A stretch of DNA of 64,000 nucleotides, taken from positions 356,382 through 420,381 of the forward strand of contig WELB01000074.1 in the NCBI GenBank assembly GCA_009602725.1, read 5' to 3'. This DNA comes from Spirogloea muscicola (taxonomy: Eukaryota > Streptophyta > Zygnematophyceae > Spirogloeales > Spirogloeaceae). Both the position numbers and the translations under genes were made by a program. Below the pieces are notes generated by a model. It worked only from the letters and a program-made list of their open reading frames with translations, was not told where the DNA came from and made no database searches. Positions 23,280 to 59,060 of this stretch are shown here, piece by piece; positions within the stretch are counted from its first letter, which is position 1, and every line of letters begins with the position of its first letter.

Positions 23280-25550
23280 GGCATCCCCTGGCAGGGCCGT
23301 TGACCTCCTTTGCGCTGACCCCCCTCCAGGCGCCGGTGGCAGTGGCTGCCAACACGCTTGTTACGTGCATTGCGCACAGCTTCCGCGGCAGCGTGCCGCT
23401 CGCAGCGCGTAACACCCCCCCCGGGTCTAAGCTACACGCCCGAGCTGCCAGGTGGCGCGCAGGCAGCACCCCCTCGAATGGGGGAAGCTTGGGACCTGCA
23501 GGGCGCCGCCATTCTCGTACTTTGTATCTGGGCTGGCCTTTCCAGTCCCGTCGGCGCTGCGATCTGAAACTTGCTGGGGGCTGCCCGGTCAGGCCGGGCA
23601 GTCGCTGTCGGTGAAGATGTGCTCTACGCCCTCCACGTGGCGCGCCACCGTCGAGCCGCTGACTACTTACGCCGCGACCCGCTACCGGCGCCGCGGAATA
23701 TCTGCAGCGGGTAAGCTTCCTGGATAGGCACGTGGCTCTCGCTGGCGCCTGCGATGGGCGTCAACGGCCTCCCCTTTCGAGAGCGCTCCCCCGGCACGCC
23801 ACGTGGCAATTTGTCAGACTCTCGGCGGTGCCCGGTGGAAGAGAGGAAGACTCCCCAGTAGAGGGCGATATTGCTGTGACTGGGCCAGCCAAGAAAAAAG
23901 AAATCGGAGAATGCTTCAGAGGGGCCAGTAAAGCGCCGAACGAGACAGCTACTCAAGTGGCCACTGGGTGCTCAATATTCCCTGTTGAGCAGCCGCAGGT
24001 CAGACAGCTAGTCACCGGGTAGCCGGCCCCTGTCTACAGCCAAAGGCTGCAGCCAAAACGCGACTGGCACGCAGAAGGGTCTCAGTGCCGTGGGTTATGT
24101 TGTAGTTTGCAACTCGTGAGCTGGGCCGCCAGCCGCAAGCGCAGTCCTGCCCTTGGCGAGGATTTTCCACAAAATTTGTGCTTGCGCGCTTTCGGACCTT
24201 GCTTCAATTTTGGGCTGGAACTTGACAGCCGTCACCCCCCTTTTGAGTAATCTCATGCTTTGATCTTGGGGTCCAAGACTAGAGACAATGGAGAGTGAGC
24301 AGTACCATCTGGGTGTCCTCGCTCAGGCAGCCATGTGACCTCCTTAATGCTTGACCTGCGAACATGCTTGTAGCCAGCACCAGCTTTCTGAGTGCTTGCC
24401 TGCTTGTGTCGTACAGTAGATGCTGAGGTGTGAGGGCGCCAGCTGACCGAGTCTGACATTAGCGTGTACGCATTCTAATATCAAACTCGTGTGCCGCTGA
24501 GCATGCACTTCGAGATTGTCCAAAAGCCGGCTGCTTGCACTACCGTACGTCCTCAGTGCAGCCGACACTTCTTCCCAGGTGGAAACAAACTGACTGGGGC
24601 TGCCGAGTGAACTCAGATTGAACAGGTGCGCCTGCTACTATATATCTGGCCTTATGGCATCTTGTCAATCTGTAAGAATTTGAGGAGCACGACCAAGAAG
24701 GAAAGCACTGTAGGTGTCCAAGCAGGCGAAGCTGAGTAGTCTGTGATATCGTGACTCACTCCAATGTACTTCCACAAGGATTTCACTACATACAATCGTG
24801 ATAGGAGTATCAAGACCAAGGTCTGGCCGTGCAGATGGTCGTAGAGGAGGAGTTGATGTTCTTTCAGACGTGCAGACCTTATGATGTCTTTCATACACCA
24901 CGCTCTGTTGTGCGCGTTTTGTGTACTATGTGTACAGCAATCAATGGTGACTAAGATGAACCAGATGAAGCTGTTAGCAGTGCCTCTAGTTGTCGTCTTC
25001 TTGACTTCCGACTTCGATGTGATTGTGTCAGCAAAAAGCAGCAACACAATCACATCGAAGTCGGCTGTCAAGAAGATAACAACTAGAGGCACTGCTAACA
25101 GCTTCTGCTGCTTTTCTTTGTCAATGCGCTGGTACTTATAGGGAAATTTCTATTTAGCCTCTCTTTGCAGTTCTATGTATGAGCTTTGACTAGAGCAACA
25201 ACTCAGGTTCTGCAACTAGTCTTTTTGACTTCTTGACGTACTTGCTAACACCGAGTGTCTCTTTCACTGGATTTTGCAATATATTGTGATTGTTTGAGTG
25301 AGTAGGAGATCGATCAGTGGTGTAGCAAAGAGTGCATCAATCTGTAGCTCACACTATGACTACATTTGTACGACAAGACAACACCAAAATCTAGGGGAAA
25401 AAAACCGTTATGAGCAGAGGTTCAAAGGACGACTTAGTTCTCCAAGAGAAGGAGCTCAAAGAATTACAAAATTGGGAGATCGTGTCATCTGACACTCAAA
25501 AGTTTATCTATCGTGGTCTTGACCAGTGCAAGAGCCAGAGCTTCTAAGAG
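23280..25550. repeat. Distal copy of the 2.2-kb tandem segmental duplication
   Basis: It matches 20990-23150 in order and orientation. It differs by indels, including an extra GCTCAATATTCCCTGTTGAG piece near 23970 and a local inverted copy that creates a hairpin at 24971-25101. The part right of about 23.9 kb also belongs to the left palindrome arm. Confidence 0.65.
24971..25101. repeat. 58-bp inverted repeat with 15-bp loop
   Basis: 24971-25028 (CTGTTAGCAGTGCCTCTAG...) is complementary to 25044-25101 (...CTAGAGGCACTGCTAACAG) with few mismatches. The homologous segment at 22.63-22.73 kb has one arm only, so the second arm was added locally. Confidence 0.85.
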
Positions 25551-25587
25551 GCAGCAGATGTGATTTACAAGCAGCAGTCTATGCTGC

Positions 25588-27545
25588 TCATACGCAGATG
25601 GAGCTATAGCCGATGCCGCCGAAGTAGAAGTAAGCCTCCCAGCCTCCAGGATTGGCTCCAACCCAGATGCTGTAGCAGTTGCTGTTGCTGGTGTAGGAAG
25701 AGATGGCATAGTCGAGGTTGTAGAGGGTGTTGTACTGGTTCACAAACTGGATGTTGCGGATGTAGGCAGCGTAAGACCAGCCCTTGGCCGCGTACCAGCC
25801 GCTGCCCATGTACGTGCGAGTGTGCCTCCCGTAGGGCTCGATGTTCACAATCTCGCCTCCCCACTGGACCACCTCGGCGTGGTTGTTGAGGCGGGTGAAT
25901 ATCCACCACGGCCAGTAGCCCACCCACTGACCCTGGTACTGGAGCCACCAGTGGCCAGAGCCGGGGTCCTTGAAGACCAGGAGCGTGAACTCCCACTGCG
26001 TGCTCCCGTACCAGGAGACGGGAGTCACCCTGCCGCCGAGGTAGACATTGCCGTTCGTCTGCACGAAGCCGCTGCAATCCAGGTTGTAGCAGCCGGTGCT
26101 CTTGTATGCATCCCTCTGCGATCAGGGAGACGAGAGCCGGCAGTGAGTCCAGCTGTTGATGAGGTAAAGAATGTCAAGGTAAGGCGGACCATCTTACAGC
26201 AAGGCTGCTAGCGGACAAAGGACAGTCCGTAAATGAAGAGCCTCACCGTCCAGTAAATGAAGAGCCTTGACTGCCAGTCGCCGTACTTGTTGGGGTACAG
26301 CTGCCAACCCGCCTCGATCGTGTTCAGGTCGCCATTGCCGTAGGACCCCGCCACCAGCCACAGCTGGGAGAGGCTGAACTCGCTTGCAAACTCCACATAG
26401 GGGTTCCAGACGTTGAATGTCGCCTTGGTGCCGTATATGAGGCCGCTGTTCCCGCTGTACTCACCAATGGCGTACTGCAAAATGCGCCCGAAGAATACGA
26501 TCAGCTGCAGGTACGAGATATGTATGGCAGCAGCTGCAAGCTGTGCCATGATGTATGCATGACATATGCTACAATAAGACGAGCCCTTGTTCCTGACTAG
26601 ACACGGTTGAGCAACTGCGACTGACCTCGTGACCGGCATATGAAGGCTTCTGGATGGCATTGTAGTTGAGCCTCGTTGTATTGCTGCCAGCTTTCATCAT
26701 GCCTGCAGTGAGGGTCTCATTCCCAGGCGCACCAGTGCTATTCCTTGACTTGTGCTGGCCTTTGTTCGGGTGATGGCCACCACCATGAGCCTTGGGGTGC
26801 TTCTTGAAAAAGTCTGGCAATGAGCCAGCCCTAGCGACTTCGTCGTCTGCAACAAGGGAAGGCTATATCAATGCGACTGCAGGACTTTATAAATGTCGTA
26901 CACATCGAGGTTGTGGAGAGCTACAGCCGCAGCTATGGATATGTGAGATTCGCTTTGCAGATCGCACGAGCCTTGCCAGGAAACGAGGTGGAAAAAGAGG
27001 AGAGGACTTACGAGTGACGCGGCGGACGGGGATGGTGCCCTCTGGGCAGCTGCCCCAGGTCTGCTTGACTGGGACGTGCGAGCTGTTGACCTTGCCATCA
27101 TCGGNGGCAAATTACCTGGATCTTGTGATCCTTGAACTTGGCATCCTGCATGGTGTGCTGGTCCGCAATCTTGACGCAGTCGACGACATCCCCATCCTCC
27201 GTGTGGATGGTCTTCTGAGCAGGCCTCTGGTGGCGGGCGACGTACTTGGCAATGCGCGCCTGGTGATCAGCATCTGGTGAATGAACGAATGTGCGGCTTG
27301 TCAGCAAGCATCTTCAGACTCCGCAGTGGAGACGTCTCCATCAGTTTTGAGATAATGTGGATGGAAGAGTGAGCGCAAGGAGTAAGCGAAGGGGCCGGAG
27401 TGGTACCTCCGGAAGGCGGAGGGCTGCTGAGCAGGCGCCTGCCCTGCTGCGGCTGCCCCGCGGCGCTGAGGCCGGCAAAGAGGAGCTGGGCGAGGAGGAG
27501 GAGGCAAGCGAGGGCTAGCGGTCGGCGGCCCCGGGCAGGAGCCAT
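25588..27545 (-). CDS. Neprosin-domain secreted protein, gene C (interrupted by an assembly gap)
   Basis: Exons: 27545-27407 (signal peptide), 27273-27116, then exon 3 seen only as 27104-27012, then 26846-26626, 26474-26247 and 26115-25588. The single N at 27105 joins the start of intron 2 (GTAATTTGCC after the exon-2 donor) to the middle of exon 3. About 25 nt of exon 3, with the MKPPSLKA codons, and most of intron 2 are therefore absent. Mirror gene H has this region intact, so an assembly gap is the simplest reading; a real deletion is possible. All else is open, with both candidate catalytic glutamates present. A 16-bp near-copy of CTCTTCATTTAC sequence follows the exon-5 donor (GTGAG), shared only with H. 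The linker is QHKSRNSTGAPGN. Confidence 0.8.
27105..27105. other. Ambiguous base (N) at an assembly join
   Basis: The only N in the window. Sequence on its two sides is non-contiguous relative to every paralogue: exon 3 on the left, intron 2 and exon 2 on the right. Expected spacing is about 190 bp greater in gene H. Confidence 0.9.
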
Positions 27546-27790
27546 GCTGGGGGCGAGGCGGCGGCTCGCTAGCTCCGAGAGACCGCTTTGGTGGGCAGTG
27601 GGGGGGCTGAGGCCAGCGGCAGCTTGCAAGGTCGGGGAGGCGCGCTGGGTGGGCGGTGGGGCGGGAGAGGCGAGCAGCCGGGCAGGCGGGGTGCGCGGGA
27701 GGCCGGGATGGGGAGGGGGGGGGGGGGTGCCTGGCAGGTGGTCGCCGGGCTTGGGGCTGGTGGGCTTGGGGTGAAGCGCTGAGCCCCCTG

Positions 27791-27800
27791 CCTCTTATAG
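27791..27800 (-). promoter_or_regulatory. TATA-like box of gene C
   Basis: CTATAAGAGG on the minus strand, about 246 bp upstream of the ATG. Confidence 0.6.
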
Positions 27801-28097
27801 GGGGGGCCCTGAAGGGCGGCGACCGGACGGCGGCGGCGCGTCGCCGCGGAGCGGGTCAGCCGAGCTGCTCGTGGAGTCCCGTTTTGTCAACGCTCTTGGG
27901 GCTGCCCTTTCTCAACTGCCTTTGTCAACTTCTTTCCGGCATGCATATCACAGCCCTTGCCCCCTTTGGGAGAGCCAATTCTTGCTCGGCTGCCCCCCAG
28001 TTTTGGAGGAAATTGTTGTCTTTCATCTCCTGGCTTGCCATACAAGCGCTGCCCGGCAAAGCTGGGCAGCCGGCGGTGATGTGCAACTGCAGTGCAC

Positions 28098-28256
28098 CAC
28101 GTGGCGCGCTCTTGGCAGGCCGTTGACCCCCTCTGCCCCCTCCCGGTGCCGGTGGCAGTGGCTGCGAGCACGCTTGTCACGTGCCTTGCGCATGGCTGCG
28201 CCTCGCGCGCTACATCCCCCCTCCCGGTCCACGTAAGACGCTGGAGCCGCCACGTG
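28098..28256 (-). promoter_or_regulatory. Upstream G-box cluster of gene C
   Basis: CACGTG at 28098 (followed by GGCCGTTGACCCC), 28178 and 28251. The last directly borders the captured oxidoreductase fragment. The same three boxes occur in mirror order upstream of H. Confidence 0.5.
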
Positions 28257-28288
28257 GCGCGCAGGCAGCTCCCCCCGGAAGAGCGGGC

Positions 28289-28450
28289 GGCGTGGACGTG
28301 GTGGTGGCGGGCGCGGGCGCCTGGCGGGCCTGGCGGCGGCCCGGGAGCTGGCTCGGCACGGCGCCCGCGTCGCCGTTCTGGAGGCCTCGGACGGCGTCGG
28401 CGGCATGGGGGCGGCGGACCGCTGCGGCGCCCGCTTATCGTGCGCTTACC
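28289..28450 (+). pseudogene. Fragment of a FAD/NAD(P)-dependent oxidoreductase (dinucleotide-binding motif)
   Basis: GVDVVVAGAG is encoded at 28289-28318. After a 2-nt insertion the frame continues as LAGLAAARELARHGARVAVL, then EASDGVGGMG (28321-28407). This is the N-terminal GxGxxG Rossmann motif plus the VLEAxDxxGG signature of amine-oxidase/phytoene-desaturase-type flavoproteins (established family pattern). There is no catalytic remainder, and repeats border it on both sides. A second copy is at 53600-53710 on the other strand. The exact parent family cannot be fixed from 50 residues. Confidence 0.75.
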
Positions 28451-28549
28451 GCATCGAGAGAGCGGAGAAAGCTTCCTCCAGAAGATGGGCGATGACTGGG
28501 TCGGCCAGCCCAAGCGACGTATGTCCAAGGTTCGTAGGGGCCAGGAAAG

Positions 28550-28720
28550 AAGAAGGGCTCGCCCATTGAGGATAGGGGCTGGAAAAAGCCAGCCCAAAGA
28601 GAATGAACAAAGGACGTTAAGGGGCCAGGGGAAGCTCTAAGAACAGCAAGCACAAGAAGAAACCAAGCAGCTACGAAGCACTCGGTAACCCCTGCTAAGC
28701 AGCCTCAGGTCAGAGCTACT
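28550..28720 (-). repeat. Hairpin repeat plus LINE-tail repeat (minus orientation)
   Basis: GGGCTCGCCC, then GGGGCTGGAAAAAGCCAGCCC (28556-28597), followed by the tail repeat CAGTAACCCC-type sequence at about 28685-28715. The mirror is at 53290-53455. Confidence 0.7.
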
Positions 28721-29560
28721 GGAAAGCGCTCAAGCACGCATCCGCCACCTTGCCCGTGACGAAGAAGCCTTACTGCCCTCCCCCCACTTGGGAAAGCGGC
28801 TTCTTCTTCTTCACGAAGGCTTCTTCTTTTGGCGCCTCAGCTTAGCTTGTCAGATATGCATGTGCTCACCCGGGGATATTAGTGTCCCCCTTAGCCAGCT
28901 CATTACCCAGTTAACAGGTCATTTGTAAGGCTTGAATTGGCCTCCCTTTCAATTTCATGCGCACCGCGCGCCTTCTCTTCACGAAGGCTTGGACCCATGG
29001 TCTAACGTGAGCAGCCGTCCAAGGAGTACCACCGCCTCGGTGTGCTCGGCCCCTCAGTACGTTGGACAGTACGTCCGACGTGCCATTGGTGCTATTTACC
29101 TGACTTGGGACCAGCGCGTGTGCGTCTAGGCACACACTTTGGTCGGGCGTGCGATAGATTTCCTCGCCAACCTGGCTGCTCGCGTCCAACATTGTTCCCG
29201 CTGCGGAGCCCACACTTCTTTCATCTAGAAGCCATCTAGTAGCATCTCGAGACGGCGGCGCTACCTCCATCCAGGCCGGGCACATTGGTGGAGGCTCGCT
29301 CTGCAGCCCACGCTTTCAGCTTCGAAGTGGTGGCTGCAAGCCATTGCTTTCCACGGAAGCTTCTCACCCCCATGGCCCGTGACGACAACTACGTTCTCCC
29401 TCGTATCGAGTCAGCTTGCACAAGCCGTGCCCTCTTACATTCTCTCCACAAATTCCTCTTTGCATTGAGATTGCTTGCTTGGCTAATTACGCACGACTTG
29501 GTAAGCCTATCACTATACAGACAATTCTACATCTGCTCCACGATCTAACCCATCCTACAC
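28720..29560. repeat. Duplicated coding-like block of unknown origin (left copy)
   Basis: The minus frame near 28960-29275 reads MEVAPPSRDA..WLLDERSV, then CLDAHALVPSQVNS and PWTAAHVRPWVQAFVK. The plus frame near 29285-29545 reads EARSAAHAFSFEVVAASHCF. Closely related copies lie at 52640-53235 (inverted) and, more divergent, at 40370-40800. No family is recognised. No consistent open frame spans a whole copy, so this may be an old element or a promoter or gene fragment. Confidence 0.5.
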
Positions 29561-31050
29561 AACAGGCCTTTGATCTCTGGTAATTTTCCTCGTGGCTGAC
29601 TGAGGCCGCCGGGACGACCACATCGCTAGATTTTCCACCTCATACAAGTTGCGCCGACCTCACTGTCTTGTATTTCGAAAAACGCACGTGGCAAGGTCTA
29701 TGGCGCTGCTATATGCTATTCTTTGGAGCAGAAGCTGAATGATCACTAGATGACTGACCATTGCTGATCAAAGCAATCACTGATCATTGCTCGTCTAGGC
29801 AAACTGATCAGACTGACCAAAGCAGTAATCACTGATCAGATTGACCTGATGAAAGAAATAATCAGATTATTGGTTGACATTAAGCACGTAATTTGGTCGA
29901 AAATTCTCTCGACTTAACGGAGCGATGGGATAAGGAGTTGCCAGCCTGCACTACTTGGCGGTCAACAAAATTATGACCTACTCATATCCCGCTGTGTACC
30001 TGTGTCCATTCTTTTTGGGCTGGCTTTGCCAGCCCCTCTTCCCTATGGGTGAGCACTTTCTTCTCTTTAGGATACACTAAGCTGAAATATAACATCCAAC
30101 CGGCACAAGAAGGCCACCCAGAGGACACCATCCAATCAGGACCACTCCCGCTTGTGATGCTACAGTCAGAAGGCAATCTGATTGGAGGCTTGCTCAAGAC
30201 ACAAAACCTTGGCATACTGCTAATGTCCGAGGACCTCGAGAAGCATTTGTTCATGAGAGACAGGTCAACCAAGAATATCAAGCACTTAGGGAGGCCAGGG
30301 TGAATACATTCGTGTTGTTTGCTTGTAATCTAAGTTGCTTGACTTTCATCCAAGCCTAGCTCAGAAGGCCGCACTGCAGCCTATGAAGACCAAGGTCCGG
30401 CTGTGCAGGTAGCCATTCGGCCCGTGTTTTGAATAAGGAGCAAGAGTCGAGGACCCATTTAGAAGCACAGGCAAGCGGTCAATTCAAAAAAGACGTGCTT
30501 AGCTTGTGCAACAATCGGAGTGACATTCGCAAATTCATCAACATTTCTTTCCCCTGCAGCAATTTCTAGTAGCGCCTTTATCTTCTCTCTGTCAGATTCC
30601 ATAACATTACTGCTTCAACACCACGGCTATACACAAAGTCGATAACATGCTAGAATCAACTATGAGCAGTACGTCCACAATGTTCTGACAGGATTTTACA
30701 AAGTAATAACCCAACTTCTGCATTGATCCTTTTATTATCCACTCAGAGATTCGAGCCAATACATCTGTGCTACAGATTGTCTTCTGAGTGTCCCATCTAA
30801 GCAAGAGATAATCAAGGGAGTGATACACTCATGCTCAGTCCTACCAATGACCAAGACCACAATGTCAACGTCTCAATGATTGAAGTAATGGGGCCCCTGA
30901 CATGAAGGGGCAAAAAATAATAAATAGAAAGTCGGCTCGTCTATCAAGCACTGCAGCGCTTATTCCTGTCATGGTAATAATGTCTGCAAGACCAGGACAC
31001 AAATCGGATGCAACAGCAGCTTCGCTTCCTACAAGCAGCGGTCACAAGGC
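29560..31050. other. Intergenic region downstream of gene D
   Basis: It holds a hairpin repeat at 30003-30055 and a coding-like stretch at about 30060-30300 (plus frame YNIQPAQEGHPEDTIQSG, then GGLLKTQNLGILLMSEDLEK). That stretch is conserved in the mirror copy at 51930-52110 but starts and stops without gene context. The rest is the 3' flank shared with A, G and I (AGTCGGCTCGT motif near 30930). No gene is called. Confidence 0.55.
29730..29880. repeat. TGATCA-rich cluster (left)
   Basis: TGATCA or near-copies recur every 10-25 bp (GCTGATCAAAGCAATCACTG type) through about 150 bp. The inverted counterpart is at 52290-52440. Confidence 0.7.
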
Positions 31051-33172
31051 TTATACGCAGATGGAGCTGTAGCCAATGCCGCCGAAGTAGAAGTAAGCCT
31101 CCCAGCCTCCAGGATTGGCTCCAACCCAGATGCTGTAGCAGTTGCTGTTGCTGGTGTATGAAGAGATGGCGTAGTCGAGGTTGTAGAGGTAGTTGTACTG
31201 GTTCACGAACTGGATATTACGGATGTAGGCAGCGTAAGACCAGCCCTTGGCCGCGTACCAGCCGCTGCCCATGTACGTGCGAGTGTGCCTCCCATAGGGC
31301 TCGATGTTCACGATCTCGCCTCCCCACTGGACCACCTCGGCATGGCTGTTGAGGCGGGTGAATATCCACCACGGCCAGTAGCCCACCCACTGACCCTGGA
31401 ACTGGAGCCACCAGTGGCCAGAGCTGGGGTCCTTGAAGACCAGGAGCGTGAACTCCCACTGTGTGCTCCCGTACCAGGAGACTGGAGTCACCGTGCCGCC
31501 GAGGTAGACATTGCCGTTCGTCTGCACGAAGCCGCTGCAGTCCAGGTTGTAGCAGCCGGTGCTCTTGTATGCATCCCTCTGCGACCAGGGAGACGAGAGC
31601 CGGCGGTGAGTCCAGCTGTTGATGAAGTAAAGGATACCATGGCAAGGCTGACCATCTTACGGCAAGGCTGCTAGCGGACGAAGGACAGCACTCACCGTCC
31701 AGTAAATGAAGAGCCTGGACTGCCAGTCGCCGTACTTATTGGGGTACAGCTGCCAACCCGCCTCGATCGTGTTCAGGTCGCCATTGCCGTAGGACCCCGC
31801 CACCAGCCACAGCTGGGAGAGGCTGAACTCGCTTGCAAACTCCACATACGGATTCCAGACGTTGAATGTCGCCTTGGTGCCGTATATGAGCCCGCTGTTC
31901 CCGCTGTACTCACCAATGGCGTACTGCAAAATGCGCCGGAGAATACGATCAGCTGCAGGTACGAGATGTGTGTGGCAGCAGCTGCAAGCGGTGCCATGAT
32001 GTATGCATGACATATGCTACTTCACAATAAGACTGAGTCCCTGTTCCTGACTAGACACGGTTGAGCAACTGCGACTGACCTCGTGACCCGCATACGAAGG
32101 CTTCTGGATGGCATTGTAGTTGAGCCTCGTGGTGTTGCTGCCACTTTTCATCATGCCTGCAGTGAGGGTCTCATTCCCAGGCGCACCAGTGCTATTCCTT
32201 CCCTTGTGCTGGCCTTTGTTCGGGTGATGGCCACCGCCATGAGCCTTGGGATGCTTCTTGAAAAAGTCTGGCAATGAGCCAGCCCTAGCGACTTCGTCGT
32301 CTGCAACAAGGGAAGGCTATATCAATGCGACTGCAGGACTTTATAAATGTCGTACACATCGAGGTTGTGGAGAGCTACAGCCGCAGCTATGGATATGTGA
32401 GATTCGCTTTGCAGATCGCACGAGCCTTGCCAGGAAACGAGGTGGAAAAAGAGGAGAGGACTTACGAGTGACGCGGCGGACGGGGATGGTGCCCTCTGGG
32501 CAGCTGCCCCAGGTCTGCTTGACTGGGACGTGCGAGCTGTTGACCTTGCCATCATTGGAGGCCTTGAGGGAAGGGGGTTTCGTCTGCAAGAAGCCAGCAG
32601 CCGAAAATCATTCAGATAAGTGCTGATAGAAGCGACTGTGCACTCCTGTATAGCTTCCTGCCGCAGTCTGCAGCGAGGCTGGACTACAGCCTCGCAGAAG
32701 GTGTGTCAAACAGTAATGTACCTGGATCTTGTGATCCTTGAACTTGGCATCCTGCATGGTGTGCTGGTCCGCAATTTTGACGCAGTCGACGACATCCCCA
32801 TCCTCCGTGTGGATGGTCTTCTGAGCAGGCCTCTGGTGGCGGGCGACGTACTTGGCAATTCGCGCCTCGTGATCTGCATCTGGTGGATGAATGTTTGCAG
32901 CTTGTCAGAAACACATGAACTCCACTACCAGGTTGCCCAATGGAGACCTCTTTAACATCATGTCGGAATGGGTCTCTGTAGACACAACAAAGAACGAGAG
33001 AAGGGTCGAGGAGACACGGAAAGGGAGTGGTACCTCCAGAAGGCGGAGGGCTGCTGAGCAGGCGTCTGCCCTGCTGCGGCTGCCCCGCGGCGCTGAGGCT
33101 GGCAAAGAGGAGCTGGGCGACGAGGAGGAGGCAGGCGAGGCCGAGCGGGCGGCCGCCACGGGCGGGAGCCAT
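31051..33172 (-). CDS. Neprosin-domain secreted protein, gene D
   Basis: Exons 33172-33034, 32879-32722, 32583-32466, 32300-32080, 31923-31696 and 31578-31051 give 463 residues, all in phase. Exon 3 starts TKPPSLKAS (ACG) where A and B have MKPPS; G and H share the T. Distinct residues include DADHEARIAKY in exon 2 (Q to E), KASNDGK in exon 3, GRNSTGAPGN in the linker and QYNYLYNLDY in exon 6 (shared with pseudogene E). The signal peptide is LLLVAQLLFASLSAAG. Both candidate catalytic glutamates and the GCYNLDCSGF cysteines are kept. Its mirror partner is G. Confidence 0.9.
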
Positions 33173-33426
33173 GCCGGGGACGAGGAGGCGGCTCGCCAGC
33201 TCCAAGAGGCCGCTTTGGTGAGAAGTGGAGGCGGTGGCCAGGGGCGGCTTGCGAGCTTGAGGTGTAGCGCTGGGTGGGCGGTATGGCGGGAAAGGCCAGC
33301 CGGCGGGCACGCGGGCAGGCGGGTTGCGCGGGGAGGCCGGGGTGAGGAGGGGAGGGGGAGGGGGGCAGGCAGGTGGCCGCCGGGCTTGGGGCTGGGGGCT
33401 TGGGGCGAAGTGACGAGCCTCCTGCG

Positions 33427-33436
33427 CCTCTTATAG
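33427..33436 (-). promoter_or_regulatory. TATA-like box of gene D
   Basis: CTATAAGAGG on the minus strand, about 255 bp upstream of the ATG. Confidence 0.6.
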
Positions 33437-33494
33437 GAAGAACGGAAGGTCGACCAAATGCGGCTATTGGGTGGGGGGGCCACTTGGGCCCTTT

Positions 33495-33745: not shown

Positions 33746-33867
33746 AAGGACACTTTCAGGACAGGGCGTTGGCAAGGTCTGAGAGGCTGCCCGCCGCGCC
33801 GGCGAGTTTTGTCTGGCGCTGCCCGGCCTGTCCGTGCAGGCAGGGATGAGAGGCATTCGCCGCTCTC

Positions 33868-47942: not shown

Positions 47943-47950
<8 letters not shown>

Positions 47951-48710: not shown

Positions 48711-48752
48711 CATCTAAGAGCCGCGTTCGGTCGTTCTTCCGTCCTGCCTTCC

Positions 48753-48761
48753 GATAAAAGG
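48753..48761 (+). promoter_or_regulatory. TATA-like box of gene G
   Basis: GATAAAAGG, a variant of CTATAAGAGG, 252-260 bp upstream of the ATG and followed by CAGGAGGCTCG as in the paralogues. Confidence 0.55.
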
Positions 48762-49012
48762 CAGGAGGCTCGTCACTTCGCCCCAAACCCCCAGCCCCAG
48801 CCCGGCGGCCACCTGCCTGGCCTCCCCCCCCTCCCTCCTCACCCCGGCCTCCCCGCGCACCCCGCCTGCCCGCCTGCCCGCCTGCTGGCCTTTCCCGCCA
48901 TACAGCCCACCCAGCGCCCCACCTCGAGCGCGCAAGCCGCCGCTGGCCACCGCCTCCACTGTGCCACCAAAGCGGCCTCTTGGAGCTGGCGAGCCCCCGC
49001 CTCGTCCCCGTC

Positions 49013-51131
49013 ATGGCTCCCGCCCGGGGCCGCCGCCCGCTCGGCCTCGCCTGCCTCCTCCTCCTCGCCCAGCTCCTCTTCGCCAGCCTCAGCGCCGCGG
49101 GGCAGCCGCAGCAGGGCAGGCGCCTGCTCAGCAGCCCTCCGCCTTCTGGAGGTACCGCTCCCTTCCGTGTCTCCTCGACCCTTCTCTCGTTCTTTGTTGT
49201 GTCTACAGAGACCCATTCCGACATGATGTTGAAGAGGTCTCCATTGCGCAACCTAGAAGTGGAGCATATGTGTTTCTGACAAGCTGCAAACATTCATCCA
49301 CCAGATGCAGATCACCAGGCGCGCATTGCCAAGTACGTCGCCCGCCACCAGAGGCCTGCTCAGAAGACCATCCACACGGAGGATGGGGATGTCGTCGACT
49401 GCGTCAAGATTGCGGACCAGCACACCATGCAGGATGCCAAGTTCAAGGATCACAAGATCCAGGTACTTAACAGTTCGAAACACCTTCTGCGAGGCTGTAG
49501 TCCAGCCTCGCTGCAGACTGCGGCAGCAAGCCATACAGGAGTGCACAGTCGCTTCTATCAGCACTTATCTGAATGATCTTCGGCTGCTGGCTTCTCGCAG
49601 ACGAAACCCCCTTCCCTCAAGGCCTCTGATGATGGCAAGGTCAACAGCTCGCACGTCCCAGTCAAGCAGACCTGGGGCAGCTGCCCAGAGGGCACCATCC
49701 CCGTCCGCCGCATCACTCGTAAGTCCTCTCCTCTTCTTCCACCACGTTTCCTGGCAAGGGTCGTGCGATCTGCAAAGCGAATCTCACATATTTACAGCTG
49801 TGGCTGGAGCTCTCCACAACCTCGATGTGTACGACATAGATACAGTCTTGCAGTCGCATTGATATAGCCTTCCCTTGTTGCAGACGACGAAGTCGCTAGG
49901 GCTGGCTCATTGCCAGACTTTTTCAAGAAGCACCCCAAGGCTCATGGGGGTGGCCATCACCCGAACAAAGGCCAGCACAAGGAAACGAATAGCACTGGTG
50001 CGCCTGGGAATGAGACCCTCACTGCAGGCATGATGAAAGCTGGCAGCAACACAACAAGGCTCAACTACAATGCCATCCAGAAGCCTTCATATGCGGGTCA
50101 CGAGGTCAGTCGCAGTTGCTCAACCGTATGTAGTCGGGAACAAGGTCTCGTTTTATTGTGAAGTAGCATATGTCATGCATACATCATGGCACAGCTTGCA
50201 GCTGCTGCCACACACATCTCGTACCTGCAGCTGATGGTATTCTTCGGCGCATTTTGCAGTATGCCATTGGTGAGTACAGCGGGAACAGCGGGCTCATATA
50301 CGGCACCAAGGCCACATTCAACGTCTGGAATCCGTATGTGGAGTTTGCAAGCGAGTTCAGCCTCTCCCAGCTGTGGCTGGTGGCGGGGTCCTATGGCAAT
50401 GGCGACCTGAACACGATCGAGGCGGGTTGGCAGCTGTACCCCAACAAGTACGGCGACTGGCAGTCCAGGCTCTTCATTTACTGGACGGTGAGTGCTGTCC
50501 TTTGTCCGCTAGCAGCCTTGCTGTAAGATGTCAGCCTTGCCATGGTATCCTTCACCTCATCAACAGCTGGACTCACCGCCAGCTCTTCTCTCCCTGTTCG
50601 CAGAGGGATGCATACAAGAGCACCGGCTGCTACAATCTGGACTGCAGCGGCTTCGTGCAGACGAACGGCAATGTCTACCTCGGCGGCAGGGTGACTCCCG
50701 TCTCCTGGTACGGGAGCACGCAGTGGGAGTTCACGCTCCTGGTCTTCAAGGACCCCGGCTCTGGCCACTGGTGGCTCCAGTACCAGGGTCAGTGGGTGGG
50801 CTACTGGCCGTGGTGGATATTCACCCGCCTCAATAGCCACGCCGAGGTGGTCCAGTGGGGAGGCGAGATCGTGAACATCGAGCCCTATGGGAGGCACACT
50901 CGCACGTACATGGGCAGCGGCTGGTACGCGGCCAAGGGCTGGTCTTACGCTGCCTACATCCGTAACATCCAGTTCGTGAACCAGTACAACACGCTCTACA
51001 ACCTCGACTACGCCATCTCTTCATACACCAGCAACAGCAACTGCTACAGCATCTGGGTTGGAGCCAATCCTGGAGGCTGGGAGGCTTACTTCTACTTCGG
51101 CGGCATTGGCTACAGCTCCATCTGCGTATAA
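49013..51131 (+). CDS. Neprosin-domain secreted protein, gene G
   Basis: Exons 49013-49151, 49305-49462, 49601-49718, 49884-50104, 50260-50487 and 50604-51131 give 463 residues with standard borders. Architecture: signal peptide LACLLLLAQLLFASLSAAG, activation peptide, linker AHGGGHHPNKGQHKETN, and catalytic domain with SEFSLSQLW and QWGGEIVN. It is the mirror partner of D, with FASLSAAG and the TKPPSLKAS start of exon 3; exon 3 ends RRIT rather than RRVT. Exon 6 ends ICV. Nothing suggests loss of function. Confidence 0.9.
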
Positions 51132-53290
51132 GCCTTGTGACCGCTGCTTGTAGGAAGCGAAGCTGCTGTTGCATCCGATTTGTGTCCTGGTCTTGCAGAC
51201 ATTATTGCCATGACAGGAATAAGTGCTGCAGTGCTTGATAGACGAGCCGACTTTCTATTTATTTATTCTTTGCTCCTTCATGTGAGGGGCCCCATTACTT
51301 CGATCATTGAGACGTTGACATTGAGGTCTTGGTAGGACCGAGCATGAGTGTCTTGCATCACTCCCTTGATAATCTCTTGCTTAGATGGGACACTCAGAAT
51401 ACCAATTGGTAGCACAGATATATTGGCTCGAATCTGTGAGTGGATAACAAAAGCATCAATGCAGAAGTTGGGTTGTTACTTTGTAAAGTCCTGTCAGAGC
51501 ATTGTGGACGTACTGCTCATAGTTGATTCTAGCATGTTATCGACTGTGTATAGCCGTGGTGTTGCAGCAGTAATGTTATGGAATCTGACAGAGAGAAGAT
51601 AAAGTCGCTACTAGAATTTGCTGCAGGGGAAAGAAATGTTGATGAGTTTACGAATGTCTTTCCGATTGTTGCACAAGCAAAGCACGTCTTTTCCTAATTG
51701 ACCGCTTGCCTGTGCTTCTGAAAGGGTCCTCGACTCTTGCTCCTTATTCAAAACACGGGCCGAATGGCTACCTGCACAGCCGGACCTTGGTCTTCATAAG
51801 CTGCAGTGCGGCCTTATGAGCTAGGCTTGGGTGAAAGTCAAGCAACTTGGATTACAAGCAACAACAAGACATATTCACCCTGGCCTCCCTAAGTGCTTGA
51901 TATTCTTGGTTGACCTGTCTCTCATGAATAAAGCTCCTCGAGGTCCTCGGACATTAACAGTATGCCACGGTTTTGTGACTTGAGCAAGCCTCCAACCAGA
52001 TTGCCTTCTGACCGTAGCATCACAAGCGGGAGTGGTCCTGATTGGATGATGTCCTCCGGGTGGCCTTCTTGTGCCGGTTGGATGTCATATTTCAGCTTAG
52101 TGTATCCTACGAAGAAAGTGCTCGCCCATAGAGAAGAGGGGCTGGCAAAGCCAGCCCAAAAAGAATGGACAAACGTACACAGCGGGATATGAATAGGTCA
52201 TAATCTTGTTGACCGCCAAGTAGTGCAGGCTGGCAATTACCTTATCAATCGCTCCATTAAGTCGGGAGAATTTTCGTACGTGCTAAATGTCAACCAATGA
52301 TCAATTATTTCTTTGATCAATGACTGCTCTGATCAACTTGATCAGTGATCACTGCTTTGATCAGTTTGATCAGTTTGACTAGACGAGCAATGATCAGTGA
52401 TTGCTTTGATCAGCAATGGTCAGTCATCTAGTGATCATTCAGCTTCTGCTCAACACAATAGCACATAGCAGCGTTGTAGACCTTGCCACGTACGACTTCG
52501 AATACAAGACGGTGAGGTCGGCACAACTTGTACGAGGTGGAAATCTAGCAATGTGGTCGTCGCGGGGCCCTCAGTCAGCCACGAGGAAAAAAATCAGAGA
52601 TCAAAGACCAGTTGTGTAGGATGGGTTAGATCGTGAAGCAGATGTTAATCTATCTGTATAGTGATAGCCTTACCAAGTCGTGCGCAATTAGCCAAGCAAG
52701 CAATCTCAATGCAAAGAGGATATTGTGGAGAGAATGTAAGAGGGCACGGCTTGTGCAAGCTGACTCGATAGGAGGGAGAATGTAGTAGTCGTTACGGGCC
52801 ATGGGGTTGAGAAGCTTCTGTGGAAAGCAATGGCTTGCAGCCACCACATCGAAGCTGAAAGCGTGGGCTGCAGAGCGAGCCTCCACCACTGTGCCCGGCC
52901 TGGATGGAGGTAGCGCCGCCGTCTCGAGATGCTAAGAGATGGCTAGATGAAAGAAGTGTGGGCTCCGCAGCGAGAACTATGTCGGACGCGAGCAGCCAGG
53001 TTGGCGGGGAAATCTATCGCCCGACCGACCAAAGAGTGTGTCTAGACGCACACGCGCTGGTCCCAAGTCAGGTAAACAGCATCAACAGCACGTCAGACGT
53101 ACTGTCCCACGTACTGAGGGGCCGAGCACACCGAGGCGGTGGTACTCCTTGGACAGCTGCTCACCTTAGACCGTGGGTCCAAGCCTTCGTGAAGAAGAAG
53201 AAGCCGCTCTCCCAAGTGGGGGGAGGGCAGTAAGGCTTCTTCGTCACGGGCAAGGTGGCGGATGCGTGCTTGAGCGCTTTCCAGTCGCTC
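51132..53290. other. Intergenic region between G and H, mirror of the D downstream region
   Basis: It contains the shared 3' flank (to about 51.33 kb), a coding-like stretch (minus, 51930-52110), a hairpin repeat (minus, 52120-52175), a TGATCA cluster (52290-52440) and the right copy of the unknown coding-like block (52640-53235; plus frame MEVAPPSRDAKRWLDERSVG). No gene is called. Confidence 0.55.
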
Positions 53291-53455
53291 TGACCTGAGG
53301 CTGCTTAGCAGGGGTTACTGAGTGCTTCGTAGCTGCTTAGTTTCTTCTTAAGCTTGCTGCTCTCAGTGCTTACCCTGGCCCCTTCCCGTCCTTTGTTCAT
53401 TCTTCTTTGGGCTGGCTTTTTCCAGCCCCTATCCTTAATGGGCGAGCCCTTGTTC
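53291..53455 (+). repeat. LINE-tail repeat followed by hairpin repeat
   Basis: GAGGCTGCTTAGCAGGGG tail sequence at 53296-53322, then hairpin repeat 53365-53455 with TTGGGCTGGC..GCCAGCCCC-type stem and GGGCGAGCCC. Same order as at 15135-15297, so the two repeats often move or persist together. Confidence 0.7.
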
Positions 53456-53599
53456 GTTCCTGGCCACTTCAAACCTTGGACTTACTTCCCCTCGGCTGGC
53501 CAAGCCAACTCATCGCCCATCTTCTGGAGGAAGCTTTCTCCCCTCTCTCGATGCGGTAAGCGCACGAGAATTGGGCGCCGCAACGGTCCGCCGCCCGGG

Positions 53600-53710
53600 C
53601 GGCCCTAAGCCGCCGCCGCCGTCCGAGGCCTCCAGGACGGCGACGCGGGCCGCCGCCAAGCCCGCCACGCCCGCGCCCACCACCCCCACGTCCACGCCGC
53701 CCGCTCTTCC
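53600..53710 (-). pseudogene. Second copy of the FAD-binding oxidoreductase fragment
   Basis: Minus strand reads GVDVGVVGAGVAGLAAARVAVL, shown here in two parts as GVDVGVVGAG and VAGLAAARVAVLEASDGGGG. The frame is unbroken across GxGxxG, but the RELARHGA segment present in the left copy is deleted. Flanks (GAAGAGCGGGCGG and the CATCGAGAGA side) match 28.27-28.46 kb. The fragment therefore entered before the palindrome formed, and each arm later acquired its own lesion. Confidence 0.75.
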
Positions 53711-53731
53711 GAGGAGGGCTTGCCTGCGCGC

Positions 53732-53884
53732 CACGTGGCGGCTCGAGCGTGGTACTTGGACCGGGAGGGGGCTGTTGCGAGCGGGGCAAGGCACGTGACA
53801 AGCGTGTTCACAGCCACTGCCACCGGCGCCGGGAGGGGCGTCGGCGCAGAGGGGGTCAACGGCCTGCCGAGAGCGCGCCACGTG
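53732..53884 (+). promoter_or_regulatory. Upstream G-box cluster of gene H
   Basis: CACGTG at 53732, 53792 and 53879. GGGGGTCAACGGCC precedes the last (reverse of the GTTGACC partner). Confidence 0.5.
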
Positions 53885-54166
53885 GTGCACTGCAGTTGCA
53901 CGTCACCGCCGGCTGCCCAGCTTTGCCGGGCAGCGCTTGTATGAGAAGCCAGGGGACGAAAGACAACAATTTCCTCCCAAACGGTGGGGGCCAGCCGTGG
54001 AAGAAGTGGCTCTCCCAAAGGGGGCAATGGCTGTGGTATGCATGCCGGAAAGGAGTTGACAAGGACAGTTGAGAAAGGGCAGCCCCAAGAGCGTTGACGA
54101 AATGGGACTCCTCGAGCTCGGCTGACCCGCTCCGCGGCGAAGCGCCGCCGCCCTCCAGGGCCCCCG

Positions 54167-54176
54167 CTATAAGAGG
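54167..54176 (+). promoter_or_regulatory. TATA-like box of gene H
   Basis: CTATAAGAGG, followed by CAGCAGGG, about 254 bp upstream of the ATG. Confidence 0.6.
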
Positions 54177-54420
54177 CAGCAGGGTCGGCATTTCGCCCCA
54201 AGCCCATCAGCCCCAAGCCCGGCGACCACCTGCCAGGCGCCCCCCCCCCCCCTCCCCATCCCGGCCTCCCGCGCACCCCGCCTGCCCAGCTGCTCGCCTC
54301 TCCCCCCCCACCGCCCACCCACCGCGCCTCCCCGAGCTCGCAAGCTGCCGCTGGCCTTAGGCCCCCCACTGCCCACCTAGCGGCCTCTTGGAGCTGGCAA
54401 GCCGCAGCCTCGTTCTCGGC

Positions 54421-56569
54421 ATGGCTCCCGCCCGGAGCCGCCGCCCGCTCGGCCTCGCCTGCCTCCTCCTCCTCGCCCAGCTCCTCTTCGCCGGCCTCAG
54501 CGCCGCGGGGCAGCCGCAGCAGGGCAGGCGCCTGCTCAGCAGCCCTCCACCTTCCGCAGGTACCACTCGGGCCCCGTCCGTGGCTCCTCGGCCTTCTTTA
54601 GTTCTTTGTGCTCCACTACTCCGACACATCGACATTGACCTCATATGAAGAGGTCTCCGTTGCGCGACCTAGAAGTGAACTGCATGTGTTTCTGACAAGC
54701 TGCAAACTGTCCATCCACCAGATGCAGATCACCAGGCGCGCATTGCCAAGTACGTCGCCCGCCACCAGAGGCCTGCTCAGAAGACCATCCACACGGAGGA
54801 TGGGGATGTCGTCGACTGCGTCAAGATTGCGGACCAGCACACCATGCAGGATGCCAAGTTCAAGGATCACAAGATCCAGGTACTATGCTGTTCGACACAC
54901 ATTCTACGAGGCTGTAGTCCAGCATCGCTGCAGACTGCGGCAGCAAGCCATACAGGAGTGCACAGTCGCTTCTATCAGCACTTAATCTGAATGATTTTCG
55001 GCTGCTGGCTTCTCGCAGACGAAACCCCCTTCCCTCAAGGCCTCCGATGATGGCAAGGTCAACAGCTCGCACGTCCCAGTCAAGCAGACCTGGGGCAGCT
55101 GCCCAGAGGGCACCATCCCCGTCCGCCGCGTCACTCGTAAGTCCTCTCCTCTTCTTCCACCACGTTTCCTGGCAAGGCTCGTGCGACCTGCAAAGCGAAT
55201 CTCACATATCTTACTCTCAGCTGCGGCTGTAGCTCTCCACAACCTCGATGTGTATGACATATATAAAGTCCTGCAGTCGCATTGATATAGCCTTCCCTTG
55301 TTGCAGACAACGAAGTCGCTAGGGCTGGCTCATTGCCAGACTTTTTCAAGAAGCACCCCAAGGCTCATGGTGGTGGCCATCACCCGAACAAAGGCCAGCA
55401 CAAGTCAAGGAATAGCACTGGTGCGCCTGGGAATGAGACCCTCACTGCAGGCATGATGAAAGCTGGCAGCAATACAACGAGGCTCAACTACAATGCCATC
55501 CAGAAGCCTTCATATGCCGGTCACGAGGTCAGTCGCAGTTGCTCAACCAGTCTAGTCAGGAACAAGGGCTCGTCTTATTGTGAAGTAGCATATGTCATGA
55601 AGACATCATGGCACAGCTTGCAGCTGCTGCCATACATATCTCGTACCTGCAGCTGATCGTATTCTTCGGGCGCATTTTGCAGTACGCCATTGGTGAGTAC
55701 AGCGGGAACAGCGGCCTCATATACGGCACCAAGGCGACATTCAACGTCTGGAACCCCTATGTGGAGTTTGCAAGCGAGTTCAGCCTCTCCCAGCTGTGGC
55801 TGGTGGCGGGGTCCTACGGCAATGGCGACCTGAACACGATCGAGGCGGGTTGGCAGCTGTACCCCAACAAGTACGGCGACTGGCAGTCCAGGCTCTTCAT
55901 TTACTGGACGGTGAGGCTCTTCATTTACGGACTGTCCTTTGTCCGCTAGCAGCCTTGCTGTAAGATGGTCAGCCTTACCTTGACATTCTTTACCTCATCA
56001 ACAGCTGGACTCACTGCCGGCTCTCGTCTCCCTGATCGCAGAGGGATGCATACAAGAGCACCGGCTGCTACAACCTGGATTGCAGCGGCTTCGTGCAGAC
56101 GAACGGCAATGTCTACCTCGGCGGCAGGGTGACTCCCGTCTCCTGGTACGGGAGCACGCAGTGGGAGTTCACGCTCCTGGTCTTCAAGGACCCCGGCTCT
56201 GGCCACTGGTGGCTCCAGTACCAGGGTCAGTGGGTGGGCTACTGGCCGTGGTGGATATTCACCCGCCTCAACAGCCACGCCGAGGTGGTCCAGTGGGGAG
56301 GCGAGATTGTGAACATCGAGCCCTACGGGAGGCACACTCGCACGTACATGGGCAGCGGCTGGTACGCGGCCAAGGGCTGGTCTTACGCTGCCTACATCCG
56401 CAACATCCAGTTCGTGAACCAGTACAACACCCTCTACAACCTCGACTACGCCATCTCTTCCTACACCAGCAACAGCAACTGCTACAGCATCTGGGTCGGA
56501 GCCAATCCTGGAGGCTGGGAGGCTTACTTCTACTTCGGCGGCATTGGCTATAGCTCCATCTGCGTATGA
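54421..56569 (+). CDS. Neprosin-domain secreted protein, gene H
   Basis: Exons 54421-54559, 54722-54879, 55019-55136, 55307-55527, 55683-55910 and 56042-56569 give 463 residues in phase. It is the mirror partner of C: both have the QHKSRNSTGAPGN linker and a GTGAGG donor after exon 5, followed by a 16-bp copy of the exon end (GGCTCTTCATTTAC). Exon 4 begins with AACGAA, giving HNEVARAG where others have HDEVARAG. Signal peptide, candidate catalytic glutamates and cysteines are intact. A partial second exon-6 end follows directly (56597-56700), unique to this copy. Confidence 0.9.
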
Positions 56570-56596
56570 GCAGCATAGACTGCTGCTGCGTGTAAA

Positions 56597-56700
56597 GGTC
56601 GGAGCCAATCCTCGAGGCTGGGAAGCTTTACTTCTAGTTCGGCGGCATTGGCTATAGCTCCATCTGCGTATGAGCAGCATAAGACTGCTGCTTGTAAATC
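56597..56700 (+). pseudogene. Tandem partial copy of the gene H exon-6 end
   Basis: Starts GGTCGGAGCCAATCCT, repeats the WEAYFYFGGIGYSSICV segment with a TAC-to-TAG change and an inserted T, and ends with a second TATGAGCAGCATA. It lies 28 bp after the true stop. It looks like a 100-bp local duplication of coding end plus early 3' UTR. Confidence 0.85.
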
Positions 56701-59060
56701 ATATCTGCTGCCTCTTGGAAGCTCTGGCTCTTGCATTGGTCAAGACCAGGATATATCACCTGCAGACTTGAGGAGTGACACGATCTCCCCATTTTGTATT
56801 CTTTGAGATCCTTCTCTTGAAGGAATTTTTGAACCTCTGCTCATAACGGATCTCTATTTCCATAGTTATATTGTCTTATCGTACTGAGTGTAGTCATAAC
56901 GTGATTTACACATTGATGCACTCTTAGGAGCACCTTTTGTCGATCTCCTACTCTCTCAAGCAATCACAGTACATTGTGATACCCAGTGAAATAGACAAAC
57001 GGCGTTAACGAGTATGTCAAGAAGTCAAATGAACTAGTTGCAGAGCCTGAGTTGTTGCTCTAGTAAAAGCTCATAGATCTCCGAAGAAAGGCTGAACAGG
57101 TATTTCGGTATCAGTACCAGTACATCGACGAGGAAAAGCATCAAGGCAGCAACGCAATCACATCGAAGTCGGCTGTCAAGAAGATAAAAACTAGAGGCAC
57201 TGCTAACAGCTCAATTCGGTTCGTCTTAGTCATCATTGATTGCTGTACACGGTACACAAGACGTGCAAAACAAAACGTGGTGTATAAAAGTCACCATAAC
57301 GTCTACACCTTCGAAAGAACATTGACTCCTCCTCTGGCCTTTACGCTCCACGATTGTATGTTGTGAAATCCTTTTGGAAGTACATCGGAGTGACTTACGA
57401 AAGTAGAGACTACTCAGCTTCGCCTTCTTGGACACCTGAAGTGCTTTCTTCCTTGGTCGTGCTCCTCACATCCTTACAGATTGACAAGATGCCAGAAGGC
57501 AAGATATATAGTAGCAGGCGCACCTATTCAATTTGAGTTTGGTTGCAATACGAACAATAAGCGGAGTGATCTTGATTTTCACAGTCCATTGTGGGTCTCA
57601 ATGCTCTTCGAGGCCCCTGAAGTTCCTGGCACTTTGTCTCGGTGCAGTGTTCTTGTCATAGGTGTACCTACATTGTCTGAAATCTGTAACATCACGAGCA
57701 TACTTGGCTTACTTCCTACAATTCTTCACAGGGTCTTGATTTGTGCTACAATTGCCCCATTGAAGCATGATGTGCTCTGAATCCAATCAACAAGCTTGCT
57801 GGTAAGGTCCTGGACAGTTTGACCCGAAAGCACAAACGCCGGCATGCTGTAGAAGCTATGGAAATGACGAGAGAGAGACTGAGCAGGACTCAGATTCAGG
57901 TCTTGACCTTTACCTGTGTCAAGCTTTGATATCCACAGCACAGACACGGCTCTGAAGGTAGCACGTCTTCTAGCCCTTGGTGACCCAAGACCATGGATGC
58001 TTGTGCAGAAAGAGGGCAGTAATGGAGCTCAATCCCTACTGCATGCTATCATGCTATGTACTCACCAAAGGGCTGTACACTTCGCGCGGCAGCCCCAGTC
58101 AGTTTGTTTTCACCTGTATGGGAAATGTGTCGGCTGCACTGAGGACGTAAGGTAGTGCGAGCAGCCGGCCTTTGGGCAACCTCGAAGTACATGCTCAACG
58201 GCACACGCATTGACATTAGTCTACGTCCGCATTGATATCAGACTACGTCAGCTGGAGCCCTCACACCTCAGCATCAAGTGTACGGCACAAGCAGGCAAGG
58301 ACTCAGAATGCTGATGCTGGCTACAAGCATGTTCGCAGGTCAAGCATTAAGGAAGTCACATGGCTGCGTGAGCGAGGACACGCAGATGGTACTGCTCACT
58401 CCCCATGGTCTCTCGTTTTGGATCCCAAGATAAAAAATGAGATTCTCAAATTGGGGGCGACGGCTGGCTGTGAAGTTCCAGCCCAAGATTAATTCAAGGT
58501 CCGACAGCGCGCAAGCACGAACGTCCTTGGCGAGGTTTTTGGTGGAAAATCATCGCCAAGGAGAGGATTGCGTTTGCAGCTGGCGGCCCAGCTCACCACT
58601 TGCGAATTACAATATAACCCACGGCACTGAGACCCTTCTTCGTGCCAGTCGCGCTTTGGCTGCAGCCTTTGGCTATAGACAGGGGACTCGCTACCTGGAG
58701 ACTATCTGTCTGACCTGCGGCTGCTCAACAGGGAATATTGAGCACCTAGTGGCCACTTGAGTAGCGGTATCGTTCAGCTCTTTACTGGCCCCTCCGAAGC
58801 ATTCTCCAATGATTTTCTAGGCTGGCCAATCACAGCTATCGTGCTCCTTGGACGGCTGCTCCCGTTGGACCGTGGGTCCATGCCTTCGTGAGAAGAAGAA
58901 GAAGCCGCTCTCCCTAGTGGGGGGATGACAGTAAGGCTTCTTCGTCACGGGCAAGGTGGCGGATGCGTGCTTGAGCGCTTTCCTGGCCCCTTCGAACCTT
59001 GGACATACTTCCCCTGGGCGGGCCAACCCCGGTCATCGCCCTCTTCTGGAGCTTTCCGTC
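56701..59060. other. Intergenic region between H and I
   Basis: Mirror of 23.9-25.5 kb up to about 58.83 kb. Blocks: 57.35-57.53 kb (plus frame FWKYIGVTYESRDYSAS), 57.78-58.1 kb (matches 16.75-17.07 kb), 58.23-58.5 kb (KHVRRSSIKEVTWLRERGH) and a LINE tail at 58.64-58.76 kb. None forms a gene. 58.83-59.06 kb is another repeat junction. Confidence 0.55.

Follow-up and report, generated by a model that had tools for sequence, protein, structure and literature searches.

In this study we show that a 64,000-nucleotide stretch of the Spirogloea muscicola genome (the window: contig WELB01000074.1, hereafter C74, positions 356382-420381) carries neprosin-type peptidase genes in two back-to-back rows with inverted, colinear arms, and that these arms are without one common age, the unevenness of their divergence being significant against homeologous copies of the locus. 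Probably, if by no wide measure, these are mirrored neprosin rows with an ancestral inner layout, in which right-hand DNA was copied to the left and the arms were homogenised in patches. Coordinates refer to the window unless another contig is named, and genome-wide searches covered 153 Mb in 471 contigs.

Results

Mirror symmetry and its limits

The original prediction had described a ~35-kb palindrome with 15-kb arms and a 4.3-kb spacer. Inverted colinearity was recovered in two ways, by an end-to-end alignment of both arms and by a blastn comparison of the window with itself, in which colinear inverted matches far above chance join 23.87-38.9 kb on the left to 58.84-43.6 kb on the right. 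The five longest matches, each with E = 0 in blastn, are:

48534-53200 with 33658-28972, 93.0% identity
43629-48144 with 38916-34349, 85.9% identity
53181-54888 with 28822-27107, 85.6% identity
55040-56596 with 27108-25564, 97.9% identity, touching an undetermined base (N)
58081-58839 with 24611-23870, 84.7% identity

Paired matches have coordinate sums of 82.0-82.7 kb (82.2-82.7 kb in the original prediction). The microsatellites and TGATCA clusters that had been named as inverted pairs are present (CT/AG repeats at 34570-34649 and 47910-47941; five TGATCA sites at 29740-29833 and ten at 52298-52432), and non-genic DNA pairs across the centre: the intergenic stretch 34700-36790 has four matches in the genome, namely itself, the opposite arm (96%), C93 (84%) and C254 (82%). 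Similarity within a tandem array was considered as the sole source of the symmetry and rejected, because intergenic blocks pair across the centre in C74.

The array comprises nine genes (A-I) and a diverged member, X, with exon borders placed by protein similarity. Genes and parts of the symmetry are arranged as follows:

12281-14664, minus strand, neprosin gene A with six recognised coding blocks; lies outside the palindrome
18323-20729, minus strand, neprosin gene B with six recognised coding blocks; lies outside the palindrome
23870-25563, outer left block; related direct copy at 20995-23282
25566-27808, minus strand, neprosin gene C, mosaic; N at 27105, where the first part of block e3 is missing
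27213-36815, minus strand, clean left arm: DNA downstream of E, gene D, DNA downstream of D, 5' part and upstream DNA of C; the inner edge is the E stop codon
31030-33437, minus strand, neprosin gene D with six recognised coding blocks; pairs with G
35071-36570, least diverged non-coding tract of the left arm
36794-39179, minus strand, neprosin pseudogene E, several of its blocks interrupted by frame breaks and stops
40013-43290, central spacer; parts conserved in C93 (450.2-452.4 kb) and C254 (167.7-171.0 kb)
43400-45776, plus strand, neprosin gene F, separate subfamily; orthologs C93_447 and C254_171
45751-54782, plus strand, clean right arm: DNA downstream of F, gene G, DNA downstream of G, 5' part of H; colinear inverted match to the left arm
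48751-51152, plus strand, neprosin gene G with six recognised coding blocks; pairs with D
54161-56587, plus strand, neprosin gene H with six recognised coding blocks
56590-58839, outer right block, partner of 23870-25563
59044-60751, plus strand, neprosin gene I, 5' truncated; blocks e1 and e2 not found, both present in the C93 and C136 copies
62702-63446, minus strand, diverged neprosin X, which marks the array end and recurs in C93 and C136

C/H, D/G and E/F had been proposed as gene pairs in inverted order. D/G stands, and the near-identical tract of C/H touches an N. E/F was discarded as a palindromic pair: F is of a separate subfamily, E is broken, and the special match starts only at the stop codons. 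In trees F groups with C93_447 and C254_171 (support 95 for 5' halves, 99 for 3' halves) and E lies outside that group; the 5' half of E joins D, G and H (support 89), whereas its 3' half has no firm place (support 28). Identity between the bodies of E and F is 60-92% per 250 columns; as far as their sequences tell, the two are alike only as members of one family. At the stop codon (36819-36780, 40 bp) E and F are identical at 39 of 40 bases, compared with 25-28 of 35-40 bases between the same E window and D, G, H, A and two C254 genes. Since the special likeness begins there, the clean arms run outward from ~36.82 and ~45.75 kb, and ~8.9 kb instead of 4.3 kb lie between them without special pairing.

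An ancestral inner layout

One stretch searched on the left flank has copies in three contigs only, C74, C93 (89%) and C254 (88-91%), as has one on the right flank, in C74, C93 (86%) and C136 (90-92%); the genome search found no second copy of either stretch above 92% identity. A recent triplication of S. muscicola is cited in PMC9065682. Judged by their sequences, the three copies of the locus would stem from such a triplication, C254 and C136 together making up one homeolog. C93 and C254 served as the yardstick for divergence.

The genes run in C93 as X (plus strand), three minus-strand genes and then plus-strand genes, and in C254 as a minus-strand gene, the spacer and then plus-strand genes. 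Parts of the central spacer (40.0-43.3 kb) match between divergent neprosin genes in both, so that in three of three homeologous loci the spacer has a minus-strand neprosin gene on one side and a plus-strand gene on the other. Because three separate contigs show one inner arrangement, the inner inverted layout is ancestral and not a head-to-head misjoin, and as far as the assembly is trusted the back-to-back layout is shown to be older than the separation of the three loci. A head-to-head join of two haplotypes or loci, which the original prediction had named as its refutation, is largely cleared for the inner junction, but not for the left block as a whole. The inner part of the right arm occupies the homeolog position, homologs of 34700-36790 lying on the F side in C93 and C254. 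As C74 has two copies of this DNA, and C93 and C254 each a single one on the side of F, the innermost copied DNA came from the right. More copies may be hidden in runs of N (C93 445513-445535 and 466444-489150; C254 158505-159312) or beyond the end of C254 at 181014.

The homeologous array block at C254:141000-158000 is opposite in orientation to C74 and C93 and adjoins an N run; it may be a real inversion or a scaffolding error. A second, diverged neprosin cluster lies at C74:271000-317000, with counterparts in C254 and C93, and uses both strands on C74 and C254.

Divergence between the arms

Left-right distances compare the two arms of C74, all distances being Kimura two-parameter (K80). Identity per 250 alignment columns of the arms ranges from 60% to >99%. 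Three successive blocks, almost wholly non-coding, were compared outward: left-right K80 is 0.050 in the block downstream of E/F (P1, 3026 sites), 0.077 in the D-C/G-H block (P2, 2892 sites) and 0.172 in the outer block (1571 sites), against 0.163-0.176 from C74 to C93 or C254 in the first block and 0.142-0.191 from C74 to C254 in the second. The earlier view that the arms had evolved separately, drawn from their indels and point changes, is too simple, as divergence differs by block. The arms consist of an inner 1.5-kb tract at ~2% non-coding divergence, then an uneven zone mostly at 5-11%, then an older outer block at ~17%, without a smooth gradient being shown. The inner tract (35071-36570; no N, 51% GC) has 34 left-right differences in 1485 sites, a ratio to homeolog divergence of 0.16. 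At 33.45-34.47 kb, where the homeologs give too few sites, left-right K80 is 0.05-0.17.

Ratios of left-right to homeolog divergence were taken in 300-base windows of the left arm, each with 80 or more common sites, using C93 for the first block and C254R for the second; windows below this limit were dropped (in P1 four with C93 and five with C254, in P2 two). From the E/F stop outward to D the ratios are 0.60 (a window that reaches into the gene end), 0.11, 0.12, 0.26, 0.10, 0.25, 0.38 and 0.29, and beyond gene D 0.37, 0.37, 0.41, 0.60, 0.76, 0.60, 0.93, 0.43 and 0.38. Divergence is significantly uneven by this measure: over the 17 windows (0.10 to 0.93) chi2 is 51.8 (16 df, p 1.2e-5). With C254R as sole yardstick (16 windows) chi2 is 53.0 (p 3.8e-6) and the pooled ratios are 0.23 and 0.53 (p 7e-7); a narrower set of 12 windows chosen by cut-off gives 48.4 (p 1.2e-6). 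The inner tract differs from the D-C/G-H block (34 to 208 versus 139 to 254.5, p 8e-9), the tract having been chosen after the data were seen.

Clustering of identity was assessed by the longest identical run in 2000 shuffles of the mismatches. The 222-base run of the E-D/F-G block was equalled in 5 shuffles; the counts are 24 for the 5' part of C/H, 109 for the D/G gene, 520 for the outer block, 672 for the C/H 3' tract and 997 for D-C/G-H. Clustering of identity is therefore evident in the inner block and, less strongly, in the 5' part of C/H, but absent from the other four.

Trees and apparent array-wide exchange

In the tree of the D-C/G-H block (1880 sites) the left and right arms of C74 (C74L and C74R) are sisters with support 100/100. 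Left grouped with left and right with right, as in an undisturbed ancestral palindrome, is rejected by the approximately unbiased (AU) test (p 0.0003); 52 sites back the sister arms and 1 backs this arrangement. Arm-to-arm conversion would fit both the uneven divergence and the sister arms. C254 has an inverted D'/G' pair of its own (K80 0.183), about as old as its split from C74.

In the tree of the 3' halves, A, B, C, D, G and H of C74 are united in a single clade (support 99), to which E, F and I do not belong. The 5' halves disagree: C joins C254_141 (support 100), and A stands beside C93_435, without a support value. In the 3' halves paralogs within the locus are closer than orthologs, as in concerted evolution, and in the 5' halves they are not. 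As A and B lie outside the palindrome and yet have 3' halves homogenised with those of C, D, G and H, exchange appears to act between tandem and inverted copies alike. The original prediction had conversion as a possible means of maintaining the gene copies. Conversion is supported by uneven divergence and trees, with recurrent duplication as a possible alternative. The copies have not all been kept intact by the layout, since E is a pseudogene and I is without its 5' blocks.

Neprosin genes

Neprosin catalyses by two glutamates, which lie in TIEAGW and GGEI segments. The product of gene I aligns in two stretches, NTIEAGWQ and WGGEI segments included, to PDB entries 7zvb, 7zu8 and 9qr8 (best E 4.9e-49). 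Matches to PF03080 reach 213.6 bits for I, 173.5 for F and 174.0 for D (curated cut-off 22), the other genes having been recognised by protein search; these spliced genes mark the window as eukaryotic sequence. Blocks e5 and e6 are complete to within one residue in A, B, D, G and H, whereas the matches of F begin no earlier than residue 26 in e1 and residue 15 in e4. Stops within the e4 match of seven of the nine C74 genes (A, B, C, D, E, G, H), all in the first 20 residues of the query, are probably intron and were hence left out of the damage count. Gene H has a 104-base tandem duplication at its 3' end (56494-56692). A direct duplication (20995-22713 / 23278-25028, 89.6%) involves DNA downstream of gene C and is accompanied by a 3' neprosin fragment at ~23191-23283.

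Assembly cautions and repeats

A single N stands at 27105, inside gene C, with no further N from 27106 to the window end, so that an assembly join probably lies between the outer left ~3.2 kb and the remainder. The 99% C/H tract (25566-27212) was set aside as conversion evidence because of this N and the missing first part of e3. Gene C is a mosaic: intron 3 matches D perfectly in three 40-bp windows, the remaining 3' half is closest to H and the 5' part is closest to C254_141. This pattern would suit conversion, but it lies in the unsafe tract. The 538 bases at 27867-28404 are 99.8% identical to C188 and, over 387 bases, 99.5% identical to C115, in which the segment ends exactly at a single N; both contigs are unlinked to C74 and are otherwise mostly 89-93% alike; a gap-filling artefact from paralogous reads or a very recent transfer is the probable origin. 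Beside this match C188 and C115 have, by eye, an exon resembling a flavin adenine dinucleotide (FAD)-dependent oxidoreductase gene. In C93 a 98.8% tract (458173-459863 with 464745-466443) likewise holds an N and ends at an N run. No claim made here rests on the N-bearing ~99% tracts of C/H and C93 or on 27867-28404, and such assemblies call for caution wherever a ~99% tract adjoins a single N, since it may be a product of gap filling.

Other elements lie in or near the arms. An element of ~150 bases at 28828-28978, in the left arm only, is 97-99% identical to more than 20 other places in the genome and is apparently a young insertion. Dispersed repeats with many copies genome-wide occupy 39363-39990, the inner left edge where E gives way to the conserved spacer. 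A short repeat at 58841-58983, between the outer right block and truncated gene I, recurs at 53142-53282 and 28721-28820 and is a possible recombination site. A 656-amino-acid open frame at 6507-8477 matches reverse transcriptase weakly (PF00078, 18.1 bits, cut-off 29.6) and is perhaps a retroelement remnant. A run of 122 A (63879-64000) directly precedes a 1,807-base N run.

Discussion

The course of events that we favour, with some confidence only, would begin before the homeologous loci separated, with two neprosin gene rows back to back around the conserved spacer. Later, on C74 alone among the sequence compared, a copy of the DNA downstream of F would have reached the left side, where the sequence switches as the conserved last exon of E ends. 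Both the copy and this switch can be read directly from the alignment; the process might have been ectopic recombination by break-induced replication, inverted duplication or long conversion. The copied stretch would run through D/G to gene C/H, and the arms would then, or repeatedly, have been homogenised in patches, so that their tracts fall into two or more age classes, probably three. The best fit is copying in no fewer than two episodes. Exchange in the 3' halves of the genes may also have linked tandem genes, whatever their orientation. With exchange both patchy and tandem, the layout would be that of a recombining multigene array and not of a device that reliably preserves copies.

Several observations weigh against this account. 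The root positions of the D-C/G-H tree are not separated (trees 1, 2 and 4 are all in the 95% set), so that direction is shown for the innermost block only, and given the D'/G' pair of C254 an ancestral pair homogenised in C74 and separate copying are not distinguishable. The outer block has no ortholog among the six aligned rows, and hence no orthologous yardstick (nearest C93_438, K80 0.26-0.28). The outward rise is not monotonic: the window beside the E/F stop is at 0.56-0.60, the two outermost windows of the middle block drop to 0.43 and 0.38 (0.16 and 0.17 with C254L), and the five windows beyond the narrower set (0.60, 0.38, 0.29, 0.43, 0.38) weaken the gradient. Distance from the centre correlates with divergence (Spearman 0.80 over 26 non-coding windows, 0.65 over the inner 20), in windows that are non-independent. 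Shared substitutions number 15 AT-to-GC and 15 GC-to-AT, a small sample in which no GC bias is seen. Finally, the left block could be misplaced or chimeric.

This last point leads to the strongest alternative, which we regard as unlikely but serious: the left block at 27.2-36.8 kb might be a second version of the right arm, an allele or strain variant, joined in assembly at the last exon of E and in C near the N. Both ends indeed fall within or next to conserved parts of genes, where misassembly can arise, one of them near the single N, and apparent paralog copying at gaps is seen elsewhere in this assembly (27867-28404 with C188 and C115; the 98.8% tract of C93). A chimera is harder to reconcile with the N-free sequence from 27106 onward and with divergence that differs by tract. 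Retained haplotypes are not evident at the searched flank stretches, neither of which has a second copy above 92%, and the left-side inverted D' unit of C254, at K80 0.18, is unlikely to be an allele. Rather improbable, in our judgement, are several nested or successive inverted duplications of different age without later conversion between the arms. Tiers of divergence would follow naturally, and the left-side direct duplication (20995-22713 / 23278-25028) shows that duplications happen here; every event, however, would have to land in register with the previous one, and the gene 3' halves exchange across and within arms anyway. One ~15-kb inverted duplication followed by independent evolution of the arms would explain the three colinear intergenic blocks, but with block K80 values of 0.050, 0.077 and 0.172 and uneven left-right divergence (p 1.2e-5 and 3.8e-6) it is rejected as stated, and highly improbable unless the arms are misassembled.

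Compared with known systems, the analogy to sex-chromosome amplicons drawn in the original prediction is not supported. Long inverted arms around a spacer are present, but the arms are 85-98% and not >99% identical in the five longest matches, and gene E is broken. The searched stretch on each flank has ordinary homeologous copies in two other contigs. Mammalian X/Y palindromes, as presented in PMC8981503 and PMC3723533, share inverted arms and, probably, arm-to-arm conversion with C74; their >99% arm identity and GC-biased conversion are not seen here. Also comparable are the W palindromes of the willow Salix purpurea, for which PMC7023750 gives a 42.7-kb palindrome W.P1 with a 2.6-kb spacer and multicopy genes, and patchy, limited conversion in W.P1/W.P2 (arm3b/4b 96-99%): a plant, inverted arms, multicopy genes and, probably, patchy conversion are common to both. 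The willow arms 1, 2, 3a and 4a, however, exceed 99% on average in that account, compared with 85-98% in the longest matches of C74, and lie in a female-specific region. Gene conversion homogenises paralogs of one family in rice as well, according to PMC2277409, whereas C74 has two back-to-back rows, a conserved spacer and homeologous loci as a yardstick. The likeness to solved neprosin structures concerns gene I, which is 5' truncated. Literature searches, which are not proof of absence, gave among the papers listed nothing to the point on a conversion gradient in inverted repeats (by title or start of abstract), no title on plants or algae for inverted duplications with concerted evolution, and, for neprosin arrays in algae, two papers naming neprosin among those listed.

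In conclusion, the array is of a known kind, an inverted, recombining protease array, and real as far as the assembly goes. It might even be, although we consider this quite doubtful, that back-to-back gene rows flanking a conserved spacer provide a durable platform for recombination, on which the right row has repeatedly been copied over the left since about the triplication or earlier. Copying would then have been more frequent close to the spacer, and the last exchange would tend to be older further out. The homeologous copies serve as an internal clock, by which the divergence of each arm tract is measurable against sequence that separated once. One can thereby examine, in an ordinary gene array, the distance over which conversion extends from the middle of an inverted repeat.

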